Source: a virus. Taken from it: 64,000 nt of DNA. The stretch spans positions 1 through 64,000 of IMG/VR virus record IMGVR_UViG_3300021090_000723; one strand, given 5' to 3'. The first letter of the stretch is position 1, and every line of letters starts with the position of its first letter. Below the pieces are notes generated by a model. That model was not told the DNA's origin. It saw only the letters and a list, made by a program, of their open reading frames with translations, and did no database searches. Positions 1,675 to 64,000 of this stretch are shown here, piece after piece. The translations under genes and the position numbers were made by a program.

Positions 1675-4323
1675 TCAACTCCCGTATGGGCTCGCCTTTC
1701 CGTGCTTCTCGCGCTCGGCGATCGCGGTGGCCTCGCGCATCTTCTGCTCTTCGAGTTCGTCGGCATCCGGATACAACCGGCCGAGCGGCAACGCGGTGAA
1801 TGTACCAGTTGCCTGGAGGTAGAGCATCGCCTGCGTGATGGCATCCACAGCATCATCGAATTCGATAGAGCCTTCGCCTGCAAAGGTCGTCATCTGCTCC
1901 ACCAGGGGCTCGCACCAATCGCGGAAGTGGCCCTTGCGGTGGGCGAGGCCCGACTCCGGCAGGAAGAGCATGCCCTGCTTGACCAGGGGCGAGGCCACGT
2001 GCGCGCGCATGGTCTTGGACTGGCCGTGCGGCTCGAAGGGCCAGGACGGAACGCCGAAGCGCTGGAGGGTCTGGCGCAGACTGATGCCGCTCGCCTTGTT
2101 CTCGATCAGCACGAGGTTGGGGAAGCGGCCCTGGTACTTCTTGCGGTAGGTGTCGCGCGTCTTCTCGAGTAGCTCGGGGAAGCCTAGGCGCTCCATCCAG
2201 AAGTCGCAGACCAGCGCCGCATACTTGGACCGCACGCCCATCTTCATCAGTTCGCCGGCGGTGAAGCACTGCTTGGTGTTGAAGACGCCGAGCACGATGC
2301 AGCACGAATAGTCGACCTTGCCCGTCCTGTTGTCGCGCGCCTCCTCCTCCATGGCGGTGTCCATGGTGAGCATGACCATCGAGAACTGGGGGAACGGCTT
2401 GCCCGCTGGCCACAGGCGCAGCCAGGACTTCTTGTAGATGCCGAAGTCCTCGCTATCGATGTCCTCGCCCAGGATCTCGATCTTGCCCAGCTGCGTGCCC
2501 GAGAGCGTCATCACCTCGGACAGGAAGCCGGGGCTGAGGTTCGCCAGGTTCTCGTAGGTGGTGCCGGTGACCACGATGCAGTCCGGGCGCTTGTAGAGGT
2601 TCTTCAGGTACGGGATCGGGCGTGGCGTGGTGCCGAAGACCGCCCTCGATGGCGTGCCGTCTTTGTACGGCAGGCGGACGCCGAGCATCATGTTCGAGTG
2701 CACGAATTCGAGGTTGCCCGCCGGGCGGTCCCACTCGCGGAGTTCGTCCCCGATTCCGGCGTGGCACTGCGGGCCACGGAGGCGCCCGCCCTGGTCCTTG
2801 GCGCCGAAGCCGCGGATCAGGCTCCCGTTCTTGAGCAATAGCTCGTGGTGGGTGCTGTCGTAGGCGTGCTCCCACGATTCCTTGTACAGCAGGCCAGCGG
2901 GGATGACGGATCGGAAGCCTGCGGGCCCGAGGAAGAGCGTTCCGCGCACGTCGTTCAAGGTGGGCGCGACCGCGTGCCCGATCAGGTTGGGTAGCCGCGC
3001 CATTTCGTGGCCCAGCCATTGGCACTCGGCCTCGGTGTTGTGGGTTGGGACCATCCCCATGCCAGCCAGGTACAGCTTCGATGGACTATCGACCGTGATG
3101 CATCGCACAGGCACGCTATCGATCGGGGTCACATCCGTGATGTAGCGATGGGTCTGGCGCCGCCATTGAGACCGTTTAGCCAGCTGCCGCTTTGCTTTGC
3201 GCTCAAGCCTGAAGACGGGGAAGTAGGCGGTGAAATGGATGCGCCACTTGTAGCCGCAATCCCTGCCCCGCAGCCTGGACCGGCCAGCCGTCGTGGTCGG
3301 CTTCAGCCCCAACGACCGCAGCAATTCTACAGTATGGGCCGCGAGCATTGGGTTGGTAGTTGTGAACTCGCACGTCCCGTTCTCTGCGTGCGCGTGGCCA
3401 TCCGTGTCCATCAGGCCTTGGAGCAACGCTATGCGCTGCGCGGCACTCGCCCGCAGATAATCCTGAGGGATGTGCTTGTCATCGTAGACCCCCGCTGCGC
3501 GCAGCATTTTCGTGATGGTTTCGTTACGCTCGGCCGCAAGCCTAATTCTGATGTCGAAGCATGTCCGTTGCTTGATGGTCGAGGGCCAGAAGCCAGCGAG
3601 GCGCAATTCACGTTCAAAGTGTTCAACATCCCTGGCGCCGCAGTGAAGCGTGCCGATGTCGCTATTCCCATCCCCAAGCCAAGCCCCCAGAACGTAAGGA
3701 TCGAGCGGCAAATCTTTCGCGGGCAAGCAGAGCGCCTCGGTACAGGCGATCGAATGGTTGGTTTCTTGCTTTCTTCCGACCGTTAGGGTGTCAGCGATCT
3801 GCTTGGTCGTGCGGACTTCAGCGTGGCGCCGCGGCCGGACAGCACGGCCTTGGGACTTCCGGGCCCATTTATCCCAGGTGAGCCATCCATGATCCTCGTC
3901 GGCGACTATTTCGGCGCCATCACTGAATTGCACGAGAAAGCACGGCCGATTGATCTGCACTGGCCATGCTTCGAGTACGGTGCTTATAGCGCCAGCTTCG
4001 TCGAAGACGCGATCGCCGCGCTTGAGCGCACCCATCGTGGTCCAGCCAGACGGTGTTGGGATTGGCGTTTCGAGGCAAAGCGCCTTTCCAAAACCCCTTC
4101 CGCTCTTCCAGATCAGCAGGCGCCAATCGCGCTGATCGGTGGGGACTTGCTTGCCGGCGCGCTTGCCAGCACATGCGCGCTGCGTCCAGAGTTCACTCCA
4201 GTCGATGACCGTTTTGAGATCGGCGTCCGATGCGATGCCCTGGACGCCGGCAGCGTCCATCTTGCTCGTGTAACGGCGCTGATCCTCTGCATCGCCAAGC
4301 GCGGATAGATCAATATCGATCAT
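1675..4323 (-). CDS. terL: terminase large subunit with in-frame intein
   Basis: The DNA-packaging motor ATPase and headful nuclease, made as an 882-aa precursor. The intein occupies residues 81-429, so the spliced product is about 533 aa, normal for TerL. Joining the exteins restores the Walker A loop GRGFGK|TEAE. Further TerL motifs follow: the Walker B-like CHAGIGDEL, the coupling motif GTTPRP, and three nuclease acid motifs (VMLTMDTA, LVLIENKASG, FDDAVDA). The ATG at 4323 is 20 bp downstream of the preceding gene. The small subunit lies 4 kb upstream, separated by many small genes, which is unusual because terS and terL are commonly adjacent. Without splicing, the ATPase could not be active. 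Confidence 0.95.
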   Translation of the reverse strand: MIDIDLSALGDAEDQRRYTSKMDAAGVQGIASDADLKTVIDWSELWTQRACAGKRAGKQVPTDQRDWRLLIWKSGRGFGKALCLETPIPTPSGWTTMGALKRGDRVFDEAGAISTVLEAWPVQINRPCFLVQFSDGAEIVADEDHGWLTWDKWARKSQGRAVRPRRHAEVRTTKQIADTLTVGRKQETNHSIACTEALCLPAKDLPLDPYVLGAWLGDGNSDIGTLHCGARDVEHFERELRLAGFWPSTIKQRTCFDIRIRLAAERNETITKMLRAAGVYDDKHIPQDYLRASAAQRIALLQGLMDTDGHAHAENGTCEFTTTNPMLAAHTVELLRSLGLKPTTTAGRSRLRGRDCGYKWRIHFTAYFPVFRLERKAKRQLAKRSQWRRQTHRYITDVTPIDSVPVRCITVDSPSKLYLAGMGMVPTHNTEAECQWLGHEMARLPNLIGHAVAPTLNDVRGTLFLGPAGFRSVIPAGLLYKESWEHAYDSTHHELLLKNGSLIRGFGAKDQGGRLRGPQCHAGIGDELREWDRPAGNLEFVHSNMMLGVRLPYKDGTPSRAVFGTTPRPIPYLKNLYKRPDCIVVTGTTYENLANLSPGFLSEVMTLSGTQLGKIEILGEDIDSEDFGIYKKSWLRLWPAGKPFPQFSMVMLTMDTAMEEEARDNRTGKVDYSCCIVLGVFNTKQCFTAGELMKMGVRSKYAALVCDFWMERLGFPELLEKTRDTYRKKYQGRFPNLVLIENKASGISLRQTLQRFGVPSWPFEPHGQSKTMRAHVASPLVKQGMLFLPESGLAHRKGHFRDWCEPLVEQMTTFAGEGSIEFDDAVDAITQAMLYLQATGTFTALPLGRLYPDADELEEQKMREATAIAEREKHGKASPYGS
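3037..4083 (-). other. class-3-type intein with LAGLIDADG homing endonuclease, inside terL
   Basis: A 349-aa insertion in the Walker A loop of TerL, between Lys80 and Thr430 of the precursor. It begins with Ala (ALCLETPIPTPSGW) rather than Cys or Ser, and ends MVPTHN followed by extein Thr. The WCT triad that defines class 3 inteins is visible: Trp in DHGWLTW (intein residue 67), Cys in PVRCITVD (328) and Thr in PTHN (347). A two-motif endonuclease lies between: LGAWLGDGN (about 132-140) and LLQGLMDTDG (220-229), both retaining Asp. Splicing and homing thus appear intact. Boundaries are exact if splicing restores GKT. Confidence 0.9.
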
Positions 4324-4343: not shown

Positions 4344-5996
4344 TCAACTCCGGGAGACGCCCGCTCCGATGCGAGCCCGATCAGCCCGGTAAGCCATACA
4401 GTTCGAGCAGTTGCAGCAGCCGACTGGATCGGGCTTGGGGAGCTTGGCGTACATGGGCCCCTTCGGACCGTTCACGAGCGCCGCACCGGGCCCGCCGTGA
4501 CCGGCCTCGATCACTGCACCAGGCCCGCCGAGGTAGACGTCTGGGTGCGCGTGGCGGTCCTCCTGCGCCGCCTTCAGTTCATCGAGGTACGCCATGCTGG
4601 GCGGCGCCATGCCCCCGATATCGCCCATCATGTGCGAGTCGACCAGCCGCTGCATGGCGTCCTTGATGATGGCCTCATACTGCGGCGACCACACTTCGAA
4701 CACATCACCAGGCTCAGCGCCCGCCAGGTCGACCTCGACCTTGATCCCGAGCAGGTTCATCAGACCCTTGGGCGCAGTACGGACAGCCACCCTGTCGCGC
4801 TTGATCTGCGCCATGGCCGTCATGAGCGCCTCCTCGGTCAGGTTGCCCTGCCCAGGCGCGACCGTGTTGGTGAAGAGGAGCGGAGGGTGCGCCGCGTTCA
4901 CGATCGCATCGAGGACCGCACGCTGCTTGGCATCGAGCGCAGCCTGGCCGCAGGCCTCCGCGATCAGCTGCTTGGTGCTCTTGCCGGAGAGCATCGCTCC
5001 AACAGCGTCGATCTGGTCGTCGAACGCCTGGTTCAGGAGGCGCGCGGCTGTGATCTCTTGCTGCTCCCGGTAGGCTTTGCGGGCGGCTTCCATCGCTTTC
5101 AGTTTGGCCTGGCGCTCTTGCTCGATGATGGCTGGGTGCACGCTCGTGTTCAGCGCCACGCCGTCGCCCATCACCGCCTGCGCAGCGGCGGTCTTGCCCA
5201 TGTTGCGCCCGCCCAGGAACACCGCCTTGCCAGGCTTCCTCTGGGGCATGAAGCGATGGCCGTCGCGCGGGTTCGTCAGGTCGGTGTAGGTCGACCAGCC
5301 GCACTCCAGGCACCGGCCCTTGTGGATGCGCGGCTCGCCATCGCCGCGGTAGACGCCCCAGCGGGTGCGGGAGAGCGAGACGAAGCCCAGCTTGCCGCAC
5401 TGGATGCAGAGTTCGTCGCCCACCCGGCCATTGCAGACGCGCCGGTCAAGCTCCGCGATGTCCGTGTAGCTCAGCCCGCAGCGTTTGCAGCTGTCGGTCA
5501 AGCCGTCGTACTCGTGCCCGGCGCGGATGAGCCAGCCGTCCATCGTGAAATGGCGGCTCCCGCGCGACCGCGCTTGCGGGTCCTTCGCGTAGTCCTCGGC
5601 CCACTCGCGGTATTTCGCCTTGTCCTCGTCCGAGTCCGACAGCATCGGGTGGTGGTAGAGCGTGTTTGTCGGCGCCCGCCCATCGAGCACGGCCATTCGG
5701 TTGCGCAGATCCGCATAGGCGAAAACCGCCGGCTGATGGCTCGGTGGGGTGTGGTCGAGATTGATCTCGATCTCTTCGAGCGCGTCCTCGCTCAGGTCGC
5801 GGTCATCTTCGAGCACGTACACGCACGAGGCGAGCTCCTCGAAGTCGTAGACCATGGCGGTTGGCAGATAGTCGGGCATGTCCGCCAAGGCCTCGGCCCG
5901 CACGGTCGGCATCGCCATGTCCCGCTCGATCTCGCGTTGGATCATGCGCATGCGCGCGTTGATGTCCTGGAATTCGTAGATGGCTGCGGTGGTCAA
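4344..5996 (-). CDS. large hypothetical protein with P-loop-like motif and cysteine clusters
   Basis: 550 aa. In order: an acidic N-terminal region; a cluster of CxxC pairs (CKRC, CIQC, CLEC) at about residues 169-238 that could form one or two zinc ribbons; a GGRNMGKTAAA segment (about 262-272) resembling a Walker A loop; a helical region; and a glycine/proline-rich tail ending in GCCNCSNC. I found no clear Walker B. It lies directly upstream of terL in the same transcription unit, so a packaging or head-associated role is conceivable, but I cannot name a family. Confidence 0.75.
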   Translation of the reverse strand: MTTAAIYEFQDINARMRMIQREIERDMAMPTVRAEALADMPDYLPTAMVYDFEELASCVYVLEDDRDLSEDALEEIEINLDHTPPSHQPAVFAYADLRNRMAVLDGRAPTNTLYHHPMLSDSDEDKAKYREWAEDYAKDPQARSRGSRHFTMDGWLIRAGHEYDGLTDSCKRCGLSYTDIAELDRRVCNGRVGDELCIQCGKLGFVSLSRTRWGVYRGDGEPRIHKGRCLECGWSTYTDLTNPRDGHRFMPQRKPGKAVFLGGRNMGKTAAAQAVMGDGVALNTSVHPAIIEQERQAKLKAMEAARKAYREQQEITAARLLNQAFDDQIDAVGAMLSGKSTKQLIAEACGQAALDAKQRAVLDAIVNAAHPPLLFTNTVAPGQGNLTEEALMTAMAQIKRDRVAVRTAPKGLMNLLGIKVEVDLAGAEPGDVFEVWSPQYEAIIKDAMQRLVDSHMMGDIGGMAPPSMAYLDELKAAQEDRHAHPDVYLGGPGAVIEAGHGGPGAALVNGPKGPMYAKLPKPDPVGCCNCSNCMAYRADRARIGAGVSRS

Positions 5997-8260: not shown

Positions 8261-8493
8261 TGGAGGTCGAACCCATGGCGCTCGGCGATGCGGCGCACCC
8301 GGCGATCATCGGCGTATGTCGACTTGTGCTCCTGGAACCAAAGCCCCACGCCCTGCTCGTACATATCCCCCGCCTTGGCCTTGGTCGGATCGCGCATAAG
8401 CTCCTCGCGCTGCGAGTCCAGGTCCACCTGGTCCTGAAGCTCCGCGATCGTCTCCAGGTACTCGAAGTCCCGCCGCGCGGTCGCGTACCTCAT
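8257..8493 (-). CDS. hypothetical helical protein (78 aa)
   Basis: Highly charged and predicted helical throughout (FEYLETIAELQDQVDLDSQREEL). It ends RRIAERHGFDLQ. It lies directly downstream of the terminase small subunit, coupled by a 4-bp overlap. No motif recognised. Confidence 0.65.
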   Translation of the reverse strand: MRYATARRDFEYLETIAELQDQVDLDSQREELMRDPTKAKAGDMYEQGVGLWFQEHKSTYADDRRVRRIAERHGFDLQ

Positions 8494-9176
8494 GTGCCCC
8501 CCGGCTTGACCACCGGCGCCGGCAGCTTGGCGAAAATCGGTTTGCCGCCCGCCATCGCGTTGTCCCGGACGATCTTCAGCAGCGCCTTGAACGTCCGTTG
8601 CTTCGCCTCGTCCTCCTCAGGCGTGATCTGGGGCGGAGGCTCGGGCTCGATCTTGCGCCGCCACCTGTTCGGGTCGCGGTTGTGGAGGAAGAGCGCAATC
8701 GCGCCGACCTCCGCGGGGATGTGCTCCTCGAACGGCACGATGACCGGCACCTGCCTGCGCGTGATGATGCGCTGGCCTCGCCCGTTGACCGTCTCCTTCG
8801 TCTCCGTCCCAAGGAATATCTTCACCGCCGTCACGCTGTAGCCCATCGCCCGCTGGACGAGGGAAGCCTCGATCACCTCGTTCACCTGCTCCTTCGTGCG
8901 CGTGACCGCCTGAAGAAACTCTGGGTGCGCGTGCTTCCAGGTGATGAACGTGCGGTGGGTGACGCCGATGATCTGGGCGATTTGCTCGTCGGTCAGCTTC
9001 AGCTTGATGCCCGCCTTTGCCATGGCTGGGATGCCCTGGTGGTACTTGGTCGAGCGTCCGCCTGGGTGGAGGCCGTTGGAGCGTGGCGGGCTGGTTGGGG
9101 CCTTGAAGACGACGCGCTTTGGCGGCACTCGCCTTGCCCGCTTCTTCGGCGCTGGCTTGGGCTTCTTCTTGGCCAT
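8490..9176 (-). CDS. terS: terminase small subunit
   Basis: 228 aa. After a Lys/Arg/Pro-rich N-terminus comes a helix-turn-helix at about residues 61-83 (LTDEQIAQIIGVTHRTFITW), the typical DNA-recognition element of phage small terminases. Then come an oligomerisation-type helix (EVIEASLVQRAMG) and the family signature AIALFLHNRDPNRWRRK at about 159-174. It should bind the packaging start site and deliver DNA to TerL. It overlaps the acyl carrier protein gene upstream by one codon boundary. Confidence 0.85.
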   Translation of the reverse strand: MAKKKPKPAPKKRARRVPPKRVVFKAPTSPPRSNGLHPGGRSTKYHQGIPAMAKAGIKLKLTDEQIAQIIGVTHRTFITWKHAHPEFLQAVTRTKEQVNEVIEASLVQRAMGYSVTAVKIFLGTETKETVNGRGQRIITRRQVPVIVPFEEHIPAEVGAIALFLHNRDPNRWRRKIEPEPPPQITPEEDEAKQRTFKALLKIVRDNAMAGGKPIFAKLPAPVVKPGGT

Positions 9177-9439
9177 CAGGTCTTGGGGCTCCGCATCAGG
9201 CTCTCGATGCGCTCGATGATATCCCCGAGGCTGGCGTTGTCCCCTATCAGATCATCGGGCATGCGCATATCGAGATCGTCCTCTATCTGGAGGAGGAACT
9301 CGGTGACGTCCAGGCTGTCCATGCCCAGGTCTTGGTGGACCTTGCTGTCCTTGGTCATGGGCATGTTGCGCACGAGGATGCCGGCGCAACGGAAAACGGC
9401 CGCGTGGATCTGCTCGTAGGTGGGCGGGAGGCGCTTCAC
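9176..9439 (-). CDS. acyl carrier protein
   Basis: 87 aa from the GTG at 9439, which overlaps the upstream stop by 4 bp. The stretch DLGMDSLDVTEFLLQIEDD is the classic carrier-protein helix II, with Ser42 in the DSLD motif as the expected 4'-phosphopantetheine site. Helices I and III fit too (YEQIHAAVFRCAG; LGDIIERIESL). In cells ACPs carry acyl chains for lipid synthesis. What a phage copy does is unknown: lipid change, protein acylation or binding of a host ACP partner are possible. The preceding gene encodes a small membrane protein. Confidence 0.85.
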   Translation of the reverse strand: MKRLPPTYEQIHAAVFRCAGILVRNMPMTKDSKVHQDLGMDSLDVTEFLLQIEDDLDMRMPDDLIGDNASLGDIIERIESLMRSPKT

Positions 9440-9642
9440 TGCGACCTCTCCAATGGGAACGCCTCGCGGATGTCCCATAACCAGTGCATGCCCGAGGTCC
9501 ACGCGACGTAGAACACCAGGTCCGGCACGTGGTCCCAGTCCCCGAGGATGAAGCCGTCGACTATGACCACGACCGTGACCACGGCCGCCGTGGTCGCCAG
9601 CATGCGTGGCGCCAGGTAGTTCCTGATCGAGCGGTTCATCAA
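9436..9642 (-). CDS. small membrane protein upstream of the ACP gene
   Basis: 68 aa. One clear membrane segment (MLATTAAVVTVVVIVDGFIL, residues about 14-33) and a second weaker hydrophobic, aromatic stretch (LVFYVAWTSGMHWLW). It starts MMNRSIRNYLAP, giving a positive N-terminus. It is translationally coupled to the acyl carrier protein gene, so the two may act together. Confidence 0.65.
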   Translation of the reverse strand: MMNRSIRNYLAPRMLATTAAVVTVVVIVDGFILGDWDHVPDLVFYVAWTSGMHWLWDIREAFPLERSQ

Positions 9643-13641: not shown

Positions 13642-14108
13642 CAGCGCCTCTTCCAATAGTCACGCGGTATCTGCACCTGCCTGCCGGACGTGGATTCGAT
13701 CCCGAACGCCGGCAGCTTGCCCGAGGCCATCGCACCCAGAAGCTCGACCCATGCGTCCTTCTCGCTGATGCCGCGGCGCTTGGCGATTTCCCTGGCCGCT
13801 TGATCCAGGTCCAGGCGTTCCAACTCCGCATCCTTGGTCTCGGCGCAGACCTGGTCGACCGCGCTGGCCTTGACGACAAGCGCCATCCACTCGGGCGTGG
13901 GGGGCTGCTTCCCCAGTTCCTTCCAGAGCAGCACGCGCAGCGATTCGCTCGGGATCGGGGCCGCGAAGACCAGGGCGCGGTCGGGCACGGGGATCTTGTC
14001 CCAGAACGTCGCCGGGACCGGATAATGGTTCTCGCCGTCCCACACCTCGACCAAGGGGCGCAGCTTGCGCAAGGCTTCCATGAACGCGCGGTCTTCTGCC
14101 GTTCTCAT
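13641..14108 (-). CDS. hypothetical protein (155 aa)
   Basis: The start ATG at 14108 (MRTAEDRAFMEALRKL) overlaps the upstream stop. An alpha/beta N-terminal half is followed by a charged helical half (LERLDLDQAAREIAKRRGIS) and a basic end (RQVQIPRDYWKRR). No motif recognised. Confidence 0.65.
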   Translation of the reverse strand: MRTAEDRAFMEALRKLRPLVEVWDGENHYPVPATFWDKIPVPDRALVFAAPIPSESLRVLLWKELGKQPPTPEWMALVVKASAVDQVCAETKDAELERLDLDQAAREIAKRRGISEKDAWVELLGAMASGKLPAFGIESTSGRQVQIPRDYWKRR

Positions 14109-14995
14109 GCTGCGATCCCGGCCTTCGGCCACTCGCGCACGCGGGTCCAGCCCGGCCACTCTGCCATGTCCTCGCCCTTCTTGTGCGTGAACTTCAGCGG
14201 ATGCAGAACGAACGTCGACCAATCGGCTGGCCCATAGTGGGGCCGCGCGCCAGCCTGCTTGTTGAACACCGCCACGCCCCTGGGCTGGCACTGCTGGATG
14301 ATGTTCTCGCCCCACTTGAGATTGTAGATGCGCGCCCTGGGGCCAGACTCGCCGCCGATGATGATCCAAACGCGATCAGCGAAGGCGAGGAAGTCGTCCG
14401 GCAGCTTCAAGGGCCCGATGGCGGGCTCGTAGGAGCAGTAGACGATCCACCCGGCCTCGGCGAGCTTGCGCATGATCGGCCAGCGCTCATCGAAGCGGAC
14501 CTGGTCCTCGGCCGAGAAGCCCAGCCAGAAGCGAGGGTGGGGAGGGCAGCCGGGCCCACCAGATTCTTCGAAATACCTCGCCATCACCGCTGGACGCTTG
14601 GTTAGAAACTGGCAGATGTGTTTCGACGTGAGGCATGGCTCCACCACGCGATAGATGACATCGGTGGAGCGCTTGGGGTGGAAGAGATCGCTCATGTCGG
14701 CGACGAAGATCATAGAGCGCATGCCCGGTCCGAGCCGCGGGTTCTTGGCGCCCTTCCAGCGCAGCGGCCACTGGAAGGCGTCCGGGTTCGGGTGCTCGGT
14801 CAGATGGCCGTTGAACACGTGGCTTCCGTTCACGAGCTTGGTGGTGCCGCCGTACATCGGGTGCTTGTGCAGGCGCGTGCCGCACAGGTTCATCGCGTAG
14901 CAATGGATGCAGCCCGGGGACTCGATCTCGCAGCCGCCCACCGGGTTGTGGGTTGCGTCAGTCCAGCCGATGGGGGTTTCAGCGGGCACGGACAT
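14105..14995 (-). CDS. DUF5131 (phage Gp37/Gp68) family protein
   Basis: 296 aa, full length for the family. It opens with the signature IGWTDATHNPVGGCEIESPG and CIHCYA, a CxxxxxxCxxC cluster like that of radical-SAM enzymes. Then FVADMSDLFHP, FLTKRP, WLGFSAEDQ and IIIGGESGP follow in the expected order. Family members occur in many phages and prophages, and their chemistry is not settled. The start ATG at 14995 overlaps the upstream coding region by 17 bp. A second Cys-cluster protein of similar flavour is at 27553. Confidence 0.85.
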   Translation of the reverse strand: MSVPAETPIGWTDATHNPVGGCEIESPGCIHCYAMNLCGTRLHKHPMYGGTTKLVNGSHVFNGHLTEHPNPDAFQWPLRWKGAKNPRLGPGMRSMIFVADMSDLFHPKRSTDVIYRVVEPCLTSKHICQFLTKRPAVMARYFEESGGPGCPPHPRFWLGFSAEDQVRFDERWPIMRKLAEAGWIVYCSYEPAIGPLKLPDDFLAFADRVWIIIGGESGPRARIYNLKWGENIIQQCQPRGVAVFNKQAGARPHYGPADWSTFVLHPLKFTHKKGEDMAEWPGWTRVREWPKAGIAA

Positions 14996-29074: not shown

Positions 29075-29322
29075 GGGGCGGACTGTCGGTTATCATCCGT
29101 CGTTTTGTCGGTATGTAACTGACTAACCGACATGGCCATCCGGATCACCGTTGAGGCTGTGAAGAGCTTGCCGTTCACGAGGGCCATCGAGCGGCCCGCG
29201 CGGACGACTGTAAACCCGGATTTTCGGAGAAGCAGCACGGCGTCGTAGTAACGCACAGGTTCTCGACGCTTCCGGCGCGGCTGACGCGGGTCATCGAACA
29301 GCGGCGGCTGGTGCTCGCTCAT
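29071..29322 (-). CDS. hypothetical protein (83 aa)
   Basis: Begins MSEHQPPLFDDPRQPRRKRR. After a basic lead, DAVLLLRKSGFTVVRAGRSM and ALVNGKLFTASTVIRMA look like a small alpha/beta fold. Coupled to the sigma-like gene upstream. Function unknown. Confidence 0.6.
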   Translation of the reverse strand: MSEHQPPLFDDPRQPRRKRREPVRYYDAVLLLRKSGFTVVRAGRSMALVNGKLFTASTVIRMAMSVSQLHTDKTTDDNRQSAP

Positions 29323-29819
29323 CCACAGGCTTTCCGGAGCGTCTTGCGCGCCCGCGCCACGCGGCTCTTCACGGTCCCGACTGCGCAGCAGACGTTGTCC
29401 GCGATCTTCTCGTAGGAGTGGCCGCGCGCGATCAGCAGCAGGCTATCGATCTGATGGAGCGGCAGTTTCGAGAACGCCTCCAAGATGTCCCGGAGGTCGG
29501 CGGCGTCCTCCTGGTTTCCAGGCACGGCCATGTCGTGGACGACGCTATCGCCCTCCTCGTTCCCGATGGTGGCCGAGATCGGGTTATGCACGCCCAGCCG
29601 GCGCATCTGCGAGAAGTGCCCGTTGCGCAGGATGGTGAAGAGCCAGGCCTTCATGTTGGAGCCGGGCCGGAACGCCGCGCGATGCTCCCAGGCCTTGAGC
29701 ATGACAAACTGCGCCAGGTCTTCGGCATCCTCACGCGAGCGGTGAAGCCTGGACCTGGCGAAGGCGAACAGGAACTTCCGGTGAGCCATGATCTCGCGTC
29801 CGAAGTCGCGGTCGCTCAA
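29319..29819 (-). CDS. ECF sigma factor, EcfG/ECF15-like
   Basis: 166 aa from the TTG at 29819, whose T-TGA overlap couples it to the gene upstream; ATG 29789 (MAHRKFLF) is the fallback start. Region 2: FLFAFARSRLHRSREDAEDL then FRPGSNMKAWLFTILRNGHF, very close to alphaproteobacterial EcfG. Region 4: LPLHQIDSLLLIARGHSYEK and CCAVGTVKSRVARARKTLRK. EcfG normally runs the general stress response and is held by NepR/PhyR. A phage copy could redirect host polymerase to phage promoters or hijack that pathway. Confidence 0.85.
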   Translation of the reverse strand: MSDRDFGREIMAHRKFLFAFARSRLHRSREDAEDLAQFVMLKAWEHRAAFRPGSNMKAWLFTILRNGHFSQMRRLGVHNPISATIGNEEGDSVVHDMAVPGNQEDAADLRDILEAFSKLPLHQIDSLLLIARGHSYEKIADNVCCAVGTVKSRVARARKTLRKACG

Positions 29820-40622: not shown

Positions 40623-41444
40623 ATGATAAAAGTCATCTACGGTGAAGGCTTTCCTGCCCGCTTCGAGGCGTCCACGTTCCCAGGCGGAGAACAGCACTTC
40701 CGGTTCAAGTATTTCGTGCAGCACCGGACCTGGGACATCCACACCGCGCTGACCTCGTCCGATGCCATCATGCAGCTGGCCATGGCTGTCGATGCCATCC
40801 GGCAACTCAACCCGCACGCGGATATCAAGCTCACCGCGCCCTATCTGCCCTACGCGCGCCAGGACCGCGTCTGCAATGATGGCGAGGCGCTGGCGCTCAA
40901 GGTCATGTGCCAGATGCTGAACGCGATGCGCTTCAGCGAGGTCGAGATCTGGGACGTTCACAGTCCGGTGTCGCTTGCGCTCCTCGATCGCGTCAGGAAC
41001 ATCCAGGCATCCCGCTTCGTCGATCGCATCGTCTACGAGGACCCGCTCAAGTATGTGCTCGTGGCGCCCGATGCTGGCGCGGTCAGCCGCGTTCGGGAGT
41101 GCGCCAAGCACCGGGGCATGGCCGTGGTGCGCGCGGACAAGATCAGGGACCCGAAGACGGGCGAGATCACCGATACCGTCGTCTATTCGGACCACATCGT
41201 GCACCACAACTTCCTGATCGTGGACGACATCTGCGATGGCGGCGCTACGTTCATCGCGCTGGCAAAGAAGCTCCGCCCACTGACGGACGGCGCCGTGTTG
41301 CTCTATGTGACGCACGGCATCTTCAGCAAGGGCCTGGAGGTCTTCCACGGCCTGATCGACCAGATTTACTGCCCGAACATTTGGCCGGGGGTCTCCATGT
41401 CGGGGAACGCCTCGGGGATTCTGTCACCCATAGGAGACGACTGA
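40623..41444 (+). CDS. prs: ribose-phosphate pyrophosphokinase-like protein (Prs/Adps type)
   Basis: 273 aa, a little shorter than host Prs (~315). Motifs: STFPGGEQHFRF, KLTAPYLPYARQDRVCNDGE, VAPDAGAVSRVRECAKHRGM and the PRPP/phosphoribosyl loop NFLIVDDICDGGATF. It makes PRPP, or in the phage NARP1 pathway the related enzyme Adps makes pyrophosphorylated ADP-ribose. Sequence alone does not tell which. It shares a base with the nadV start and is surely co-translated with it. The 55-bp gap before it holds nothing I can support. Confidence 0.85.
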   Translation: MIKVIYGEGFPARFEASTFPGGEQHFRFKYFVQHRTWDIHTALTSSDAIMQLAMAVDAIRQLNPHADIKLTAPYLPYARQDRVCNDGEALALKVMCQMLNAMRFSEVEIWDVHSPVSLALLDRVRNIQASRFVDRIVYEDPLKYVLVAPDAGAVSRVRECAKHRGMAVVRADKIRDPKTGEITDTVVYSDHIVHHNFLIVDDICDGGATFIALAKKLRPLTDGAVLLYVTHGIFSKGLEVFHGLIDQIYCPNIWPGVSMSGNASGILSPIGDD

Positions 41445-42937
41445 TGCCCTTCGACATCTTCATGCCGCACGCGACCGACTTCTATAAGACCGGCCATATC
41501 CGTCAGTACCCGGAGGGCACGTCGTTCGTCTATTCGAACTGGACATGCCGCTCGGACAAGCACGCGCAGGTGCTGCCCGACTTCGACCACAAGGTGGTGT
41601 TCTTCGGGCTCCAGGGCGTCTGCGACTGGATGCTGAACCAGCAGTGGCGCCGGTCGTTCTTCAACCGCCCGCTTTCCCAGGTCATCCGGCGGATCGAGAA
41701 GCGCATGGACGGCGCGCTCGGCGCAGGCGCCGTCGGCCTGGGGCCGTGGACCGCGCTGCACGGGCTGGGCTATCTGCCGGTCAAGATCAAGGCCGTGCCG
41801 GAGGGGAGCCGGGTGAACGTGCGCGTGCCGGTCTTCACGATCCAGAACACGCTCAACGAGTTCTACTGGGTGACGAACTACCTGGAGACCATGCTATCGG
41901 CGGAACTGTGGAAGCAGATGACCACGGCCACGACGGCCTACGAATACCGGCGCCTGCTCACGCGCTTCGCCCAGGCAACCGGTGCTGATCCAGGTTTCGT
42001 CCCCTGGCAGGGCCACGACTTCAGCATGCGGGGCTTGAGCGGGATATCCGACGCCACCCAGAGCGGCGCTGCGCACCTGACCTCGTTCCTGGGCACGGAC
42101 ACGATCTCCGCGCTGGACTACGTCGAGGAATTCTACGAGGGGGACGAGACCTTCATCGGCGGGTCCGTGCCGGCTACCGAGCACTCTGTCATGTGCATGG
42201 ACGGCGAGGGCAGCGAGATCGACACGTTCCGCCGCCTGATCTGCGAGCTTTACCCCAAGGGCATCGTCTCGATCGTCTCCGACACCTGGGACTTCTGGCG
42301 CGTCATCAACGAATATGCCCGTGAATTGCGGGAGGTAATCCTCAACCGGCAACCCGATGCGACCGGCAACGCCAAGGTGGTCTTCCGCCCCGACAGCGGC
42401 GATCCGGTCAAGGTGCTGGTCGGCGATCCGTCGGAGCCTTTCGGGTCTCCGGCGTTCAAGGGTGCGGTCGAGTGCCTGTGGGATATCTTCGGCGGGACGA
42501 CGAACGCCAAGGCTTATCGCACTCTCGACAAGCATGTCGGGCTGATCTACGGGGACTCGATCAGCCTCCAGCGCGCCCAGGAAATACTCGAGGGCCTGAA
42601 GCGCAAGGGCTTCACGTCCGGCAACGTGGTCTTCGGGCTCGGGTCATATACCTATCAGTATGTTACCAGAGATACGTTCGGCACAGCCATCAAGGCGACG
42701 TTCGGCCGCGTGAAGGGGCAGGACCGCGCCATCGCCAAGAAGCCGAAGACCGACGACGGCGTGAAGTTCTCCGCGCGCGGCCTGCTGCGCGTCGAGCAGG
42801 AGCGCGGCGAATTCGTGCTGCACGAGGACCAGGCCACCGAGCAGGAGGGCCAGGGCGTGCTGGAGACGATGTTCGAGGACGGGATTCTCGTGCGCCGCGA
42901 GAAGTTCTCGGACATTCGCAAGCGCCTCTGGCCGTGA
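41444..42937 (+). CDS. nadV: nicotinamide phosphoribosyltransferase-like protein (NadV/Namat type)
   Basis: 497 aa, full length for NAMPT/NadV. Motifs: ATDFYKTGHIRQYPEGT, GHDFSMRGLSGISDATQSGA, FLGTDTISALDY, VPATEHSVMCMDGEG, SDTWDFWRVI, VVFRPDSGDPVKVLVGDP and FGLGSYTYQYVTRD. It joins nicotinamide to PRPP to give NMN; the NARP1 enzyme Namat uses ADPR-PP to give NAD+ directly. Paired with the preceding gene it rebuilds NAD+, which known phages use against NAD+-depleting defences. RBS AGGAGACGACTG. Confidence 0.9.
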   Translation: MPFDIFMPHATDFYKTGHIRQYPEGTSFVYSNWTCRSDKHAQVLPDFDHKVVFFGLQGVCDWMLNQQWRRSFFNRPLSQVIRRIEKRMDGALGAGAVGLGPWTALHGLGYLPVKIKAVPEGSRVNVRVPVFTIQNTLNEFYWVTNYLETMLSAELWKQMTTATTAYEYRRLLTRFAQATGADPGFVPWQGHDFSMRGLSGISDATQSGAAHLTSFLGTDTISALDYVEEFYEGDETFIGGSVPATEHSVMCMDGEGSEIDTFRRLICELYPKGIVSIVSDTWDFWRVINEYARELREVILNRQPDATGNAKVVFRPDSGDPVKVLVGDPSEPFGSPAFKGAVECLWDIFGGTTNAKAYRTLDKHVGLIYGDSISLQRAQEILEGLKRKGFTSGNVVFGLGSYTYQYVTRDTFGTAIKATFGRVKGQDRAIAKKPKTDDGVKFSARGLLRVEQERGEFVLHEDQATEQEGQGVLETMFEDGILVRREKFSDIRKRLWP

Positions 42938-46654: not shown

Positions 46655-46963
46655 TCACTCCCTCGAACACGCCTGGATCTGGATTTCGTCGAGGGCAAGC
46701 CACGTCCGGTAAATCCCCCGCGCGGCCCTGTAGATTTTTCCAAGCGTTTCGAAGTCGCCATCGGGCACTGCGGCGAGGTCTTCGTCATCGTCAGGCAAGT
46801 CTTGAGTGCGCGGCGGCCGGCGGTCGGGGCAGACCCGCTGCTCGACGCGGGGGACCTCCACGCGGATGACCTCCGCGGGCGGGCGTTCGGGCGTCGGCGG
46901 GGTTTGGCAGGCCGCTGATGCAAAAACGGCCGCAATTATGCAGAACCTATGCAAATTATTCAC
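46655..46963 (-). CDS. o-spanin candidate (Rz1-like lipoprotein)
   Basis: 102 aa from the GTG at 46963 (GTGA overlap with the gene upstream). MNNLHRFCIIAAVFASAACQ is a signal peptide with lipobox SAAC (Cys19), then a Pro-rich start of the mature part (TPPTPERPP), as in outer-membrane spanins. It overlaps the inner-membrane spanin candidate. Together they would join inner and outer membrane at lysis, so the host is Gram-negative. Confidence 0.75.
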   Translation of the reverse strand: MNNLHRFCIIAAVFASAACQTPPTPERPPAEVIRVEVPRVEQRVCPDRRPPRTQDLPDDDEDLAAVPDGDFETLGKIYRAARGIYRTWLALDEIQIQACSRE

Positions 46964-47403
46964 GGCAAGGCCCCCCGGAGATACTTCTCGCCCGCGGAAC
47001 ATGAAGCGAGCGTGCCTGGGGTGGTCACCGTCGGGCGGGCCAGGATCAGGGCGGAGTTATCGAGCGCACCCTTGGCCTGCTTGGCCGTGGCCGCCATGCT
47101 CTTCTGAAGCCCCTCGTCCCTGGCCTTATCGCCGTCCTCGCGGTCCTTGGCGTTCTTGTCGACGTCGGCGATGGCCTCGCGCAGGCCGGTGGTGTTCGTC
47201 AGGCACTGGGTGACCTGGCGGGTGTAGCCGGTGTCCGGGTTCTCGATCCGCTCCTTGTAGCTGTCGCGATCTGCTTCAATTAACGAGATCCGCCAGGACC
47301 ACACGCCCCACTGCACGGCGTTCCCGATGAGCGCACCGAGGGCAATGATGCCGAAGAGCGGACCAGCGATTGGCCCGATGAAGAACTTCAGCAGCGCAGT
47401 CAT
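46960..47403 (-). CDS. i-spanin candidate (Rz-like)
   Basis: 147 aa from ATG 47403. One N-terminal membrane segment (IAGPLFGIIALGALIGNAVQ), then a periplasmic helical region (SLIEADRDSYKERIENPDTG; NAKDREDGDKARDEGLQ). This is the layout of inner-membrane spanins, and the order i-spanin then o-spanin fits. Confidence 0.65.
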   Translation of the reverse strand: MTALLKFFIGPIAGPLFGIIALGALIGNAVQWGVWSWRISLIEADRDSYKERIENPDTGYTRQVTQCLTNTTGLREAIADVDKNAKDREDGDKARDEGLQKSMAATAKQAKGALDNSALILARPTVTTPGTLASCSAGEKYLRGALP

Positions 47404-47621
47404 CCGGGGATGAGCTTCGCCACCGCAATGGCGCCCGCGAGCAGGCCGACACCGACGGCGGCGCCGACGATGGGCCCAACGGTCGCGACGGCCGTGGTCG
47501 TGAGCGCGCCGATCACAACGCCGCCCCAGAATCCGGTGAGCGGGTGCTTTTTGATGTACTGGCGGAAGAAGCCCCACTCTTCATCGAACTTCTTCTGCGC
47601 CTCACCTGTGTTCAGCGACAT
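47400..47621 (-). CDS. holin candidate
   Basis: 73 aa from ATG 47621 (MSLNTGEAQKKFDEEWGFFR). Two hydrophobic stretches, about residues 30-49 (GFWGGVVIGALTTTAVATVG) and 51-70 (IVGAAVGVGLLAGAIAVAKL). Small size, two membrane passes and a place between endolysin and spanins fit a class II holin. Confidence 0.6.
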   Translation of the reverse strand: MSLNTGEAQKKFDEEWGFFRQYIKKHPLTGFWGGVVIGALTTTAVATVGPIVGAAVGVGLLAGAIAVAKLIPG

Positions 47622-47623
47622 GG

Positions 47624-48169
47624 TCAGACCTCCTTGTTGGGCGAATCGCCGCCCGCGATCATGCCGGTCACGATGTGGACCGGCTTCACTTCCGTTGGCT
47701 GGAGCTTGTAGATCGGACGACGGCAGGCATGGAGCCGCGCCTTCTCCTTCGCGACGATCGTCACGGCATCGCCCTGGTTCCCGCCCAGGCAATAGAAGCG
47801 CGTCTCGTCCTCGCCGACATACAGCGCCACGTGGCCGCCGCCTTGCCGCTGGAACGTGAGCACGTCACCGAGCGATGGCTCCGGCGAGGCCACGCCGAAG
47901 GTCGCCCAGGACAGCGCGCGCAGCGGGACGGCGGGCGGGTTCTTGCCTGCGCGCTTGGCGATCAGCGCCATGAAGAGGCCGCACCACGGGACATCGTCGC
48001 CCGTGTAGCCGGCGTGATCGAGCCCGGTCTCTTTCGCCCACGCCATGATGGTCGGGTTGTTGCCCGGGCCAGGCGTCTCCAGGGTTCCGTAGAGCTTGAC
48101 GGCATGGACGACCATCAAGGGGCCGGTCAGGGCTGCGAGCCACGCGAATTGGGATGGCAGGGTGCTCAA
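47624..48169 (-). CDS. endolysin, TIGR02594/CHAP-like
   Basis: 181 aa from the TTG at 48169 (GAGGA about 10 bp upstream). DVPWCGLFMALIAKRAGKNP gives the catalytic Cys, GGGHVALYVGED the His, and YCLGGNQGDAVTIV the third motif, as in TIGR02594 cell-wall amidase/peptidases. No signal peptide is visible, so it needs the holin. C-terminal part (HACRRPIYKLQPTEVK) is short. Confidence 0.8.
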   Translation of the reverse strand: MSTLPSQFAWLAALTGPLMVVHAVKLYGTLETPGPGNNPTIMAWAKETGLDHAGYTGDDVPWCGLFMALIAKRAGKNPPAVPLRALSWATFGVASPEPSLGDVLTFQRQGGGHVALYVGEDETRFYCLGGNQGDAVTIVAKEKARLHACRRPIYKLQPTEVKPVHIVTGMIAGGDSPNKEV

Positions 48170-48291: not shown

Positions 48292-48381
48292 ATGCGCCTG
48301 TACGATTATTGCGTGTGGCTCGTGTTCGGGGGACCGCTTCTTCTCGCGATCCTGGTCGGCCTCATCAAGGTCTTCGCCTAG
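48292..48381 (+). CDS. 29-aa hydrophobic micropeptide, opposite strand
   Basis: MRLYDYCVWLVFGGPLLLAI, LVGLIKVFA, ending TAG at 48379. AGGG lies six bases before the ATG (an earlier in-frame ATG at 48286 is too close). A single membrane helix. It sits in the 195-bp gap between endolysin and the giant gene (48170-48364) and overlaps the latter's 3' end by 17 bp. The rest of that gap shows no clear promoter or terminator. Could be an antiholin-type peptide, or chance. Confidence 0.4.
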   Translation: MRLYDYCVWLVFGGPLLLAILVGLIKVFA

Positions 48382-51300
48382 TCCGCTCCAGATATTCGGC
48401 GTTGAACATGCGGATGATACGTTCTTCCGCCTCGTTCAAGATCCGCACCTGCTCGTTGTAGCGCGGCCTCGCCATCCTGCCCTGCTCCAACGCCATCTTC
48501 GCCTGAGCGCGCGATGCCCTGATCTCGGACAGTTCCGTCCTGGCGTTGTTCGCGTCGTTGTAGAGCGAGAGCATTGCCCGATTCTCCTGGACGAAGCCAC
48601 GAGCCTCAGGTCTCCGGCCCTCGCGCTGGTAGTCCCTGGCATAGGCGCGCGACTGCTCGATCTTGTTGATCCGCTCGTAGAACGTCGCCTTGTCGATCCA
48701 GGGCGGCTTGGATGTGACGACGCGGCGCACGAAGGGGATGTCGTTGAACGTGATCGTGCTGGTCGGGTCGGCAAACTTCATGGGCAGATCGAGGAAGTTG
48801 CGCTCGTAGAACGTGCCTGCGGCGCCCCAGGCCACGCCGAACCCATAGTCCAGCCACTCGGGCGAAATCTCGATCAGTCCGGGCTCGACACCCGTTCCGC
48901 CCGAGGCCGTGCTCAGGAAGTCTGTGACCGCTTTGTAGGCGGGCGAGACCGAATTCCAATAGCGCTGGCTGTTCGGGACCTGTGGGCCGTACTGGGACTG
49001 CTCCGGCGCGATCGGCCGCCCGGCATAGTCCTTGTTCATGAAGAGATCGACGACCGGGTCCATGGTGGTGGGCGCGATCATGTTGAGCAGGTTCTGCGCG
49101 CCGCCAACCGGGTTGAACGAGTCCATGATGGTGATCGCGAGGTTGCCGGCCGACTCCAGCGGGTCCTTGCCACGCATAACCTCGGCGATCGAGCGGCCGA
49201 CGCCGTAGAAGATGTTGTAGCCGTAGGGCAGCGGGATCTTCGCCGCCACTCCGCCCTCGCTCGGCGTCATGACGATCAGGTTCCGGCTCTTATCGAACGG
49301 CGTCACCTTGTCGTAGAGCAGCTGGCCGTCATCGTCCTCATCGCTGACAAAGGCGTTGAGGAAGTCCAGCAGGAAGCCGGTCAGCACCGCGAACGCTGCA
49401 ACCTTGCGCACGCGCGGGGACTTCCAGGCGGTGAGCAACGTCGCGGTGCCTTGGATGCTCGCGTTATAGAACAGGTAGAGGCTGTTCATCAGCGGGCCCC
49501 ACGAGCCGCGGCGGTTGAAGTTCACCGTCAGGTTCTTGGCGAGAGACGCCGCCTTCGCCGGGGTGAAGCCACGCTCGCGCGCGTTCTTGTAGGCCGAGAG
49601 ACGGATGGCGTTTTCCACCCCGATGTTCGTGTTCTCGATGATGCGGCCGAGCGTCTTCATCGCCATGATCGGGTTGAGCTTGGACGTGCCGATCTCCCGC
49701 ATCTGACCGTCCAGGCGCTTCCGTAGCTCGAGCACGTCTTCCATCTGGTTGAAGTAGACGCGCCCGCCGTTCTCGCGGAACTCCTGGGCCCAACGGTCCC
49801 ACTCGGCCTGGTCCTTCGCCATCCACGGCATCAGGGTTTTGCCCGGCTCCGCCTTGAACGCGCTGCGGCTCGATGCCACCAGCGCCTTGCGGTAGTCCTT
49901 CACCGTTCCCTTGGTGATGCCCTTGATGTCGCCGTGCGCCTGGATGTTCGAGAGCGCGGTCTGCGCATCGCGGAAGGCGTTCGTGATGACGAACTCCGGG
50001 TTGAGCGTCGTGTTCACGTGGCTGAGAATCCGGTTGATCGCGCCAAAATTCCGGATCAGCAGGCTGATCTGATCCTGCCCCAGGCCCTTCAGGCCCTGGG
50101 CGAGATCGCGCGCGACCGGGTTGTTGCGGTTGAACGTGATGCGATGCTCTTGCCCGTCGATCTTGGTGGACAACGTGTACGGAGCATCTTCGGCGAGGAT
50201 GCGCCGGACCGGCCAGTATTGGACCTCCTGGCGGGCCTTGATCCACACCGGCCGCATCGCGACCTTGTCGACCTTCCAGAAGTTCTCGTTGGGCGCGGCC
50301 TTCGCCAGTTCGTAGATCGCGTTGCCGATACGATTGTTCTCTCCACGGATGATCGCTTCCTCGGCCTGCATGAACGCATAGGCCAGGATGTCACGCGCTG
50401 GCGACTGACGGCCGAAGGCACGGTGCGATTCCTTGCCCTTGACGTCGAAGCCCTTGCCCGGGCGCGGGCGGTCGGCCTCGACCTCAGGGTCCAGTTCGGC
50501 CACGCCGCGCAGCGGGACATAGTCGCGATAGGTGGCGCGCCAGGCCTCGGCCTGCTCTTCCGACATAAGACCCGCTTCGACGCGCGTGTTCAGCGCGAAG
50601 GCCAGGACGTCGTCGACCATGCCTGCCAGGGCGTCGAAGTCCGCGCGCCGGCCGGTCTTATCGACCTCGTCCATGATGCCGCGCGCATCTTCATCGCTCA
50701 TGCCCGAGCCAGCGATGCCCTCTTCCCGGAACTTCGGGTTGATCTCATTGATCCGCGCGTTGCGTTCCGGCGCGTGCCGGGCATAGAGGAACGTCTCAAG
50801 CTCTTCCCGGCTGATGCCGCGCTCGTGCATGGCGAGCACAAGCGGCCGGATTTGGCGCTCGAACAGATCCTCCAGCTTCGCGCCCTTGCGGCCGGACGAC
50901 AGTTCCTCGGCCAGATAGGCGTTCTCTTCCTCCGTGAGCGGACGACCCAGCATCTGCTCGATCGCCGCCTGCATGCGCGCGACCTTGAGATAGCGGTCCT
51001 GGAAGCCCACGCGCCACTTGTCGAACGACGCATTGATGGCGGAGAGCGAAGCGGCGCCCTTCAGCCGCTCCATCAGGGAGAGGTTCGAGTTGCGGAGATA
51101 GTCCACCACGCTCGGCTGCGGGGAGTCGGTGAACATCGTGAAGGCGTTCGCGCCGGGTGGCATGCGGCGGGCGAACAGGCCCTGGCCCTCCATCACGGAC
51201 TCGCGCATGGCAGGCGTCACGTCGAGCGAGTGCACGTCGATCACGCCCTGCTTCTTCTGTGGGTGGGTCTCGGCCACGGTCCACGACGGCTCCGATTCCT

Positions 51301-54300
51301 TGCCGGTGTCGATCTTGGTGGTCCCGACCTTCGCGTCCCACTTCTTGGCGTACCGGTTCAGGAACTGGGGCACGATCCTGTCGTAGAAGCCCTTCATGCC
51401 CTCGCCGCCGACGGTCAGGTCGAGGCCGGAGATTTCACGCACGCGCACACCAAGTCCGGCTGACCGCCCCTCTACTGGTGTTACAGCCAACAGCTTATCG
51501 GCAAGCTCCGCTCCGACCAGTTCCGCCAAGTCATCGCGCGACTCGATCTGACGATTGATGGCCTCCTCATTGCGCTTCCCGTAGGCAATGAGGTGCCCAC
51601 GTTCGAATGGCCCGTCCATCCGCGGGCGCCCAATCCCGCCGCTGACGTTGTCTGTCAGCCGGAGGCTGTTGACGTGCTTGGCAAGATTGTACCGCTCAGC
51701 CTGCTGCGCACCGGTCGTCCAGGCGAGGCGGTCGTAGCCGTTCTCGGCGGCGTAGCGCAGCATCCGCTTGAGGGCGATCTCGTGCCAGGTCGACTTGAAC
51801 GGCGCGTCCGGGACGCCGGTGCGCTTCTCGATCGCCTCGCCTTCCTTGATCGTCCAATTCGTCGTGTCCATCGGCGCTTGATCGTCACGATTCCACGCCG
51901 GCCGCCGCCCATGCTTATCGCGGATGAATTCCTGCGCCTGGTCCAGCGTCGGTCGAGTGCCTACCAGTTCGCCTTGATCGTCGAAGATTGAAAAGACCGG
52001 CGAACGGGTTTCCTTGACGCTATAGCCCTGGCGTCTGCCCTTCTGATGCCAATCGCTCTGGATCTCCTCGATGAAGAGCACCCTCTTGCCGTCGGCGTCT
52101 GCGCGATCCTTGAAGCGCACATGGGCCAGGATATTCGCCTCATCGAAGTGACCTGAGCGGAACTGGCCGCTGAGCGCATCGATCGCGAGGCTCCTGTCGC
52201 CGGGATACCGGCGCCGCATGACATCGATCCAATGCGCGTCGTTTGGGCCCTCGTATTTTTTCGTGACGCTATTGAGCACGATCGGGTCATCCCAGGTCCC
52301 AACCTTATGGTCGCCGTAGAAGACCGTGACGTCGCCCTGGGTGGTCGACCGACGATTGCGCTCGATGCGGACCTTGGCCGGGTCGAAGGGCACGCCGATC
52401 TGCGGCAGCGTCAGCAGCAGTTCGCGGTAGTTCTCGCCGCCAGGGAGGGTTTGGGACTCAAACTTGGTGGCGCCGCCCTCGGCGACGATCCCGGCATCAC
52501 GATGGATCGCTTCACGCGCTTCGATGAAGTCCCCGAAGTCGCCCAACTCTCGACCAGCCCGGATGGCATTTACGCGAGTAACCACTCCGCGCTGGTCGTA
52601 ATGGAACGTGACGCTAGCATCGTCAGCGTCAAAGGCCATTTCCGAATAATACCGTTGACCCTCAGGTTGGATGGTCCTTTCTTCATCGGGGAGCCAATCC
52701 TCGATATTCTCCGGATAGGGTCCCTCATCGTCGCCAGGCGCGCGGCCCTTCTCGACCTCCTCGATCTGGACGTTGTTCTCGCGGATGAAGTCGAGCAGCG
52801 CCTGCTTCGTGACCGGTCCCTGCTGGGACTCGAGCCATTCGTTCACGCCGGTCCACTCGGTCTCGTCCTTCGTGATGCCGCGCGCGTTCTTGATGAAGGC
52901 CTGCCACTGGATGCCCGACGCCTTCTCCTGCTTGGAGGCCTCGATCGTGCGCGCGAGCGTCGAGAAGAACGGCGCCGGCGGCTGTGGCTTCAGGGCGAAC
53001 TTCGCCTCGGACCTGGTGGGCCCGGCCTTGCCGCGCTTGCCGATCCTGCCGGACTCGATGCGCTTGAAGATGTCCTCTGGCGTCTGGAAGCCGCGGCCGC
53101 GGAAGAAGTTGCGCAGGCCCTCGAAGAAATTGCGCACGCGCTGGAGAACCTTTGTCGCCAGGCCTGCCTTCGCGAATTCGTTGCTAGGCTCATAGTTCTG
53201 CGCCGCGAACGCGATCGTTTCCTCGGTCTGGACGTCGGGCTTGTAGTATTTGCCGACGATATCGAACGTCCGTTTCCACTTGTCTTTTGCGGCCGCTTCG
53301 AGTGTGGCCCACTCTGACTTGGTGAAGAAGCCGAGATTGCGCAGGCCGTGGATGACCTCATGCGTGATGGTGCCGAACGGGTCCTTGGTATCGAGCGCAA
53401 TGGTGATGAGGTTTTTTGTGATGTCGAAGTGGCCGTCGGCCTCGTGGCCCTCAGGGTCCGCAATCGCATCGGCCACGCGCACGGCGAGCGGAAGGTTGCG
53501 ATTGACCAGATAGGCGCGGAGATCGGCGGCCAGCTGCTCGCGCTTCGCCTCGAACTCGGGGCTGAATGTGAAGGTGACGCCGTCGCCGGTCTCGATGACC
53601 GGTGGCGCCTGCGGGAGCCTTAGTCTTTCAAGGCCTCTTCCAACGCCTTCTGGGCGCGCGCCCTCGCCTGCTCCACCTCTGGGCTCGACGGCAAGTCCTT
53701 GGTCCTCGCCAAGAATCTCCGCAATGCCATCGGCGAACTGAGTGGGGGCGGTTCCTCGATCAGATACATTGACGACTCCAATCGCTTTCAGCGGCGAGGC
53801 GATGGCCTCGGCCCCGGCTTGCGCCATCGTATCGAACGTGGCCGCAAGGCTTTCCGGAACAACAACGGATGAACGGTAATCGATGAGGCCGGCGCGCGCT
53901 AGACCCACCGCGAAGTTATGGCTGAAGTTGGCGACGGCGAGGTTGCGATCGAGGCCCCGCTCGCGGATCAGCGAACGGCCGACGCGGCCCTGGGCGTTCT
54001 GCGATTCTTGCAGCATCTTGTTCAGGATGTCGGAGGGGCTGGACCACAGCGTCAGGTCCAGATCGGCGAAGGCCCGGCGCGTCTCGGGGGTGAGACGGGC
54101 GGCGTGCCACTGCCCCTCCGTGGTGTGGGCGATCATCCAGTCCAAGCCAGGGAGATCCAGCAACGTCAGGTCTGCGAAGGACAGGCCGTATGGCATCGTG
54201 TGGTTATGGTGGAACACGATCCGCGCATCTGGCTTGCTGAGCGCATCCTCGATCTTGCCCCGGAGGTTCACATATGTGTCCTTGCCGGAGGTCTCCGCCG

Positions 54301-63958: not shown

Positions 63959-64000
63959 CGTGGGCTCGACGCGCGGCTTTTCCGGCTCGCCCTCGCCCCG

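Follow-up and report, generated by a model that had tools for sequence, protein, structure and literature searches.

The ACP gene and its neighbors

The window, that is, the whole stretch of 64,000 bases that was analyzed, is bases 1-64000 of a 104,903-base phage record in IMG/VR, in which the phage genes besides that for an acyl carrier protein (ACP) include terL, terS, and a DnaB helicase gene. ACP is the small shuttle of the cell that holds growing fatty acids. Its gene belongs here to a run of small, tightly overlapping genes that leads into terS, and the four minus-strand genes listed in Table 1 overlap end to start. The stop of the upstream gene meets the start of the membrane protein gene in TTTTGATGAAC, the stop of the membrane protein gene overlaps the start of the ACP gene in CGCAGTGAAG (GTGA), and the stop of the ACP gene overlaps the start of terS in ACCTGATGGCC (TGATG). 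These last two junctions bear out the original prediction that the ACP start overlaps the stop of a membrane protein gene and that both are next to terS. The same style of overlap was found in nearly all genes on this strand.

Table 1. Overlapping minus-strand genes around the ACP gene of the window
Feature	Coordinates	Strand	Basis
63-aa protein with a CxxC...HxC motif; precedes the membrane protein gene; conserved anchor in the related phage L023	9639..9830	-	Identity with L023
Membrane protein, 67 aa, ATG start, no family	9436..9639	-	Hydropathy, coding score
ACP, 87 aa, GTG start, Ser42 in DLGMDSLD	9176..9439	-	PF00550, PHROG 5934, coding score, ACP-like model and PDB matches
Terminase small subunit (terS); ATG overlaps the ACP stop	8490..9176	-	PHROG 309, E 9.6e-30

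The open frame at 9176-9502 on the minus strand matched PF00550 with an E value of 9.9e-8 and a score of 32.6 bits, above the 20.8 cut-off, and when the whole record was searched with PF00550 the ACP scored 33 bits. The likely start is the GTG at 9439, which has GGAGAGG 5-6 nt upstream, and the extension of the frame from this GTG to 9502 falls within the membrane protein gene. Ser42 lies at the start of helix II (D41 S42 L43 D44), and in an alignment of eight phage ACPs, whose diversity made it unsuitable as a scanning query, the serine of D-S-L was invariant. The protein also matched PHROG 5934, named acyl carrier protein, at 1.3e-8, which places it, within a phage genome, in a family of phage ACPs, and PHROG 14581 at 2.1e-8. 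The AlphaFold model, of moderate quality (pLDDT 72), has the four-helix fold and the helix order of an ACP, with helices at residues 8-25, 34-37, 45-56, and 71-83, and the best PDB matches to it in Foldseek were nearly all ACPs, with modest scores and E values above 0.02. It is thus nearly certain that the gene product is an ACP, and the original prediction of a complete ACP with a DSLD serine at position 42 is upheld by PF00550, the motif, and the ACP-like predicted fold.

Compared to the type II AcpP of bacteria (TIGR00517), the window ACP shares the fold, the DSLD motif, and the acidic positions of helix II, those matching D35, D38, E41, E47, D51, and D56 of E. coli all being present. These acidic positions, together with DSLD, have a role in recognition by AcpS and by the enzymes of fatty acid synthesis (FAS). 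The window ACP differs from AcpP, however, in that it scored 43.2 bits against TIGR00517, the equivalog for the ACP of fatty acid synthesis, which is below the cut-off of 70.45, and in that its charge is -6 compared to -15 in E. coli AcpP. It also differs at hydrophobic positions of helix II and the pocket, where LVM, Phe50, and Ile54 of E. coli are replaced by FLL, Leu, and Met, and because of these replacements FAS enzymes may not accept it. A recent copy of a host ACP is not supported as its source: the similarity to bacterial ACP models is weak, and among 84,980 species genomes a scan for exact short peptide patterns brought up no close relative.

With codon scores trained on the remaining genes of the record, the per-codon score was 0.341 for the ACP and 0.246 for the membrane protein, against a maximum of 0.077 among 115 ORFs of 55-85 aa in non-coding frames of the same genome. 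Both scored above all 115 of these null ORFs, and a spurious ORF was therefore ruled out for either gene; a hydropathy of 2.3 was likewise reached by none of the 115. In the membrane protein, residues 14-32 form a single strongly hydrophobic segment (Kyte-Doolittle 2.32), and a weaker one follows. It had been described as a protein of 68 aa, and while the gene is real, that length is obtained only from an upstream TTG, the ATG giving 67 aa. Searches of IMG/VR and of 50,697 phage records gave no homologue of it. Elsewhere on the minus strand, at 46960-48115, a gene for a CHAP-domain protein (PHROG tail lysozyme / endolysin) stands ahead of two genes whose products have strong hydrophobic segments. 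This is likely a lysis cassette, in which case the phage has no need of the 67-aa membrane protein (9436) as a holin.

Relatives of the phage

When IMG/VR was scanned with TerL, a single close relative emerged, L023 (IMGVR_UViG_3300021408_000080, 55.5 kb). Between the two phages, TerL identity is about 90% in the main segment outside the intein described below and 73% in the first 83 residues, TerS is about 71% identical, the orthologue of the 63-aa gene shows 87% identity over residues 1-30, and many flanking genes share their order with the window. The ACP of L023, at 4890-5138, is 42% identical to that of the window and carries DLGFDSLD, and thus Ser42, the conservation of which was a check put forward with the original prediction, is retained as FDSLD in the nearest homologue. 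As in the window, the gene has the 63-aa gene (here its orthologue) on one side and terS on the other, with one or two extra ORFs separating it from terS. What differs is the gene directly upstream, since an unrelated, soluble ORF of 126 aa at 4513-4893 replaces the membrane protein and its stop overlaps the ACP start (ATGA). The ACP and its location have therefore been kept while the coupled partner has been swapped.

In the more distant L027 (TerL identity 57%) no ACP was found in its 26.7 kb, nor was one found in the distant and partial TerS-related contigs L001-L007. Scans of viral and genome contigs with the ACP alone and of genome contigs with TerL gave no relatives, and megablast of 25 kb of sequence against phages gave no match.

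Two further observations concern the comparison with L023. TerL of the window (1675-4323, minus strand, 882 aa) is interrupted at the Walker A motif by an intein of about 350 residues, which begins with ALCLETPIPTPSGW after GFGK and ends with VPTHN before T and has a LAGLIDADG match at 3e-6, whereas TerL of L023 is uninterrupted (534 aa). A DUF5131 protein at 14105-14995 on the minus strand (E 6e-46, PHROG 2045) is 77% conserved in L023.

ACPs in other phages

The original prediction held ACPs to be rare in phages, a view at odds with the named PHROG families, the published isolates, and 72 loci in IMG/VR. With E. coli AcpP and the window ACP as tblastn queries, ACPs, annotated or not, were found in many phages, including Caulobacter phages of the phiCbK type and phages of Brevundimonas, Xanthomonas, Erythrobacter, Prochlorococcus, Pseudomonas, Vibrio, and others. 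Phage ACPs have been described as auxiliary metabolic genes or as being of unclear function (PMC5463345, PMC8224337, PMC11705849, PMC10152775, PMC3037559), in some phages an ACP and its synthase occur together (PMC3037559), and a Kuttervirus ACP was recovered once by mass spectrometry of virions (PMC10892097). The window ACP is a divergent addition to the solitary phage ACPs, a class that is already known.

The phiCbK-type ACP of Caulobacter phages (PHROG 14581, YP_006988093) is similar to the window ACP in length, in its N-terminal helix, and in the DLGxDSLDIIE core, the identity being 31%, but its gene is flanked by an HNH endonuclease gene on one side and by other small genes on the other, and it adjoins neither terS nor a membrane protein gene. 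PHROG 14581 is listed as of unknown function and is in fact the family of these ACPs (L012, Caulobacter phage phiCbK, 2992-3249; E 2.9e-53). PHROG 5934, which includes gp32 of Erythrobacter phage R6L, a protein of ICP1, and others, consists like the window ACP of ACP-fold phage proteins. The R6L ACP gene likewise shares 4 nt with the gene downstream of it, but the protein is only 22% identical and has different neighbors; the family also differs in having a member, from ICP1, that lacks the serine. In Vibrio phage ICP1 (L019, 2584-3246) two ACPs lie in tandem, the first with DELD and the second with DSLD, and the DELD copy, which has no attachment serine, still matches PHROG 5934 at 7e-32. The attachment serine was kept in 12 of 14 ACP-like proteins from the 12 phages read, those without it being this ICP1 copy and the protein of Vibrio phage 277E43-1 (DNLD). 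These copies suggest that not every phage ACP functions as a carrier.

The 72 IMG/VR loci came from one narrow scan with the window, L023, and phiCbK sequences that mostly required the DSLD pattern, and they were used for gene neighborhoods only, being uninformative on conservation of the serine. At only 3 of these loci, two of them copies of each other, was the directly upstream ORF hydrophobic enough to reach the threshold, a hydropathy cut (about 1.9) that, like the home-made gene caller, is crude. When all ORFs around 85 ACP loci, which form 61 independent groups, were clustered, sharing of any family between groups, apart from the ACP itself, was confined to the Caulobacter jumbo phages and to the cyanophages. 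Phage ACPs recur across unrelated phages, yet over these 61 groups the ACP has no phage gene as a companion beyond a single lineage. This is a useful general negative, and it points to host rather than phage partners.

Probable role of the phage ACP

The explanation that we prefer, and hold with moderate confidence, is that the window encodes a solitary ACP of the moron or auxiliary metabolic kind, which would be charged by the host and would work with the acyl-ACP enzymes of the host. Translation of the ACP would be coupled to that of the preceding gene. Since a search of the record detected no phosphopantetheinyl transferase, charging by a phage-borne transferase was discarded, and it is a host transferase of the AcpS type that would convert the ACP to its holo form. 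The holo ACP may then join the pool of host acyl-ACP substrates and either supplement or compete with the host ACP for enzymes of fatty acid, phospholipid, or lipid A synthesis during infection. That it acts on host enzymes is suggested by the lack of a co-travelling neighbor and by a Pfam scan of about 38 proteins of the phage, chiefly its larger ones, in which no recognized ACP-using enzyme appeared. The membrane protein upstream is probably an incidental neighbor in the operon.

The original prediction instead treated the ACP and the membrane protein as a pair. If they formed a module, the 67-aa protein would be a coupled partner that recruits the ACP to the membrane, and the GTGA overlap of two real genes fits this. 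However, overlaps of this style join nearly all genes of the strand, the ACP of L023 has no membrane protein beside it, the membrane protein has no homologue in the databases searched, and a hydrophobic upstream protein is exceptional among the 72 loci; the pairing thus did not hold up, and we regard such a module as the least probable explanation. That the ACP gene was recently acquired or is decaying and has no function in this phage is scarcely more credible. Its patchy presence, with none in the 26.7 kb of L027, and the low identity of the ACPs of the window and L023 compared to that of TerL and TerS would agree with a neutral passenger, but the frame is open, it has a good ribosome-binding site and codon use like that of the genome, and the DLGxDSLD core has been kept despite an overall identity of only 42%.

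The two other explanations give the ACP a task of its own, and we consider both unlikely. It might serve mainly to bind, block, or redirect host proteins that sense or use ACP, such as SpoT, MukB, IscS-type proteins, or acyltransferases, acyl transfer being secondary. Cellular ACP has many partners outside FAS (PMC3340395), MukBEF-ACP structures were among the Foldseek matches, and other phages have ACP copies without the serine, all of which speak for this; but the serine and the DSLD core are retained in the ACPs of both the window and L023. A decoy for (p)ppGpp synthases, as had been proposed, found nothing here in its favor, and recognition of ACP by SpoT has been described for beta- and gamma-proteobacteria (PMC3340395). 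This recognition relies on helix II, which other ACP partners use too, and the specificity is thought to reside in SpoT (PMC3340395). Somewhat less likely still is a phage-specific carrier, from which an acyl group, or a different one, would pass to a phage protein, to a phage DNA modification, or to a product made by the phage, by way of an unrecognized phage enzyme. For a large number of genes in the record no family is known, and some phages carry an ACP with its synthase, as noted above, both of which would fit such a role, but neither a transferase nor a recognized acyl-using enzyme was found, and there is no conserved partner near the ACPs of the 61 groups. The lipid change, protein acylation, and decoy activity originally listed are in any case indistinguishable from sequence, and to choose between supply of acyl groups, competition with host ACP, and binding of a regulator would likewise be beyond it.

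An extension of our preferred explanation, of a solitary ACP charged by the host, is that the phage ACP would compete with host ACP at chosen enzymes or regulators and in this way remodel the membrane or stress response to suit late infection, and that this would be common to many solitary phage ACPs. We put this forward as a speculation, and an improbable one.

Other genes of the window

Genes of other kinds were also seen in the window. On the plus strand at 40623-42937, a ribose-phosphate pyrophosphokinase-like gene and a nicotinamide phosphoribosyltransferase-like gene (PHROG 619 and 448) adjoin each other, and the pair, putatively Adps and Namat, resembles NARP1, a phage pair for NAD+ reconstitution (PMC12774641). 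A phage-encoded factor of the sigma-70 family is found at 29319-29819 on the minus strand (Sigma70_r2 4e-13, r4_2 3e-7). Finally, an open frame of 5766 aa on the minus strand runs from 48365 to 64000 and on to 65665 of the record; it encodes a giant protein of the polyvalent type with pyrophosphatase-like (InPase), LPD1, Eco57I-methylase-like, and helicase-like domains.
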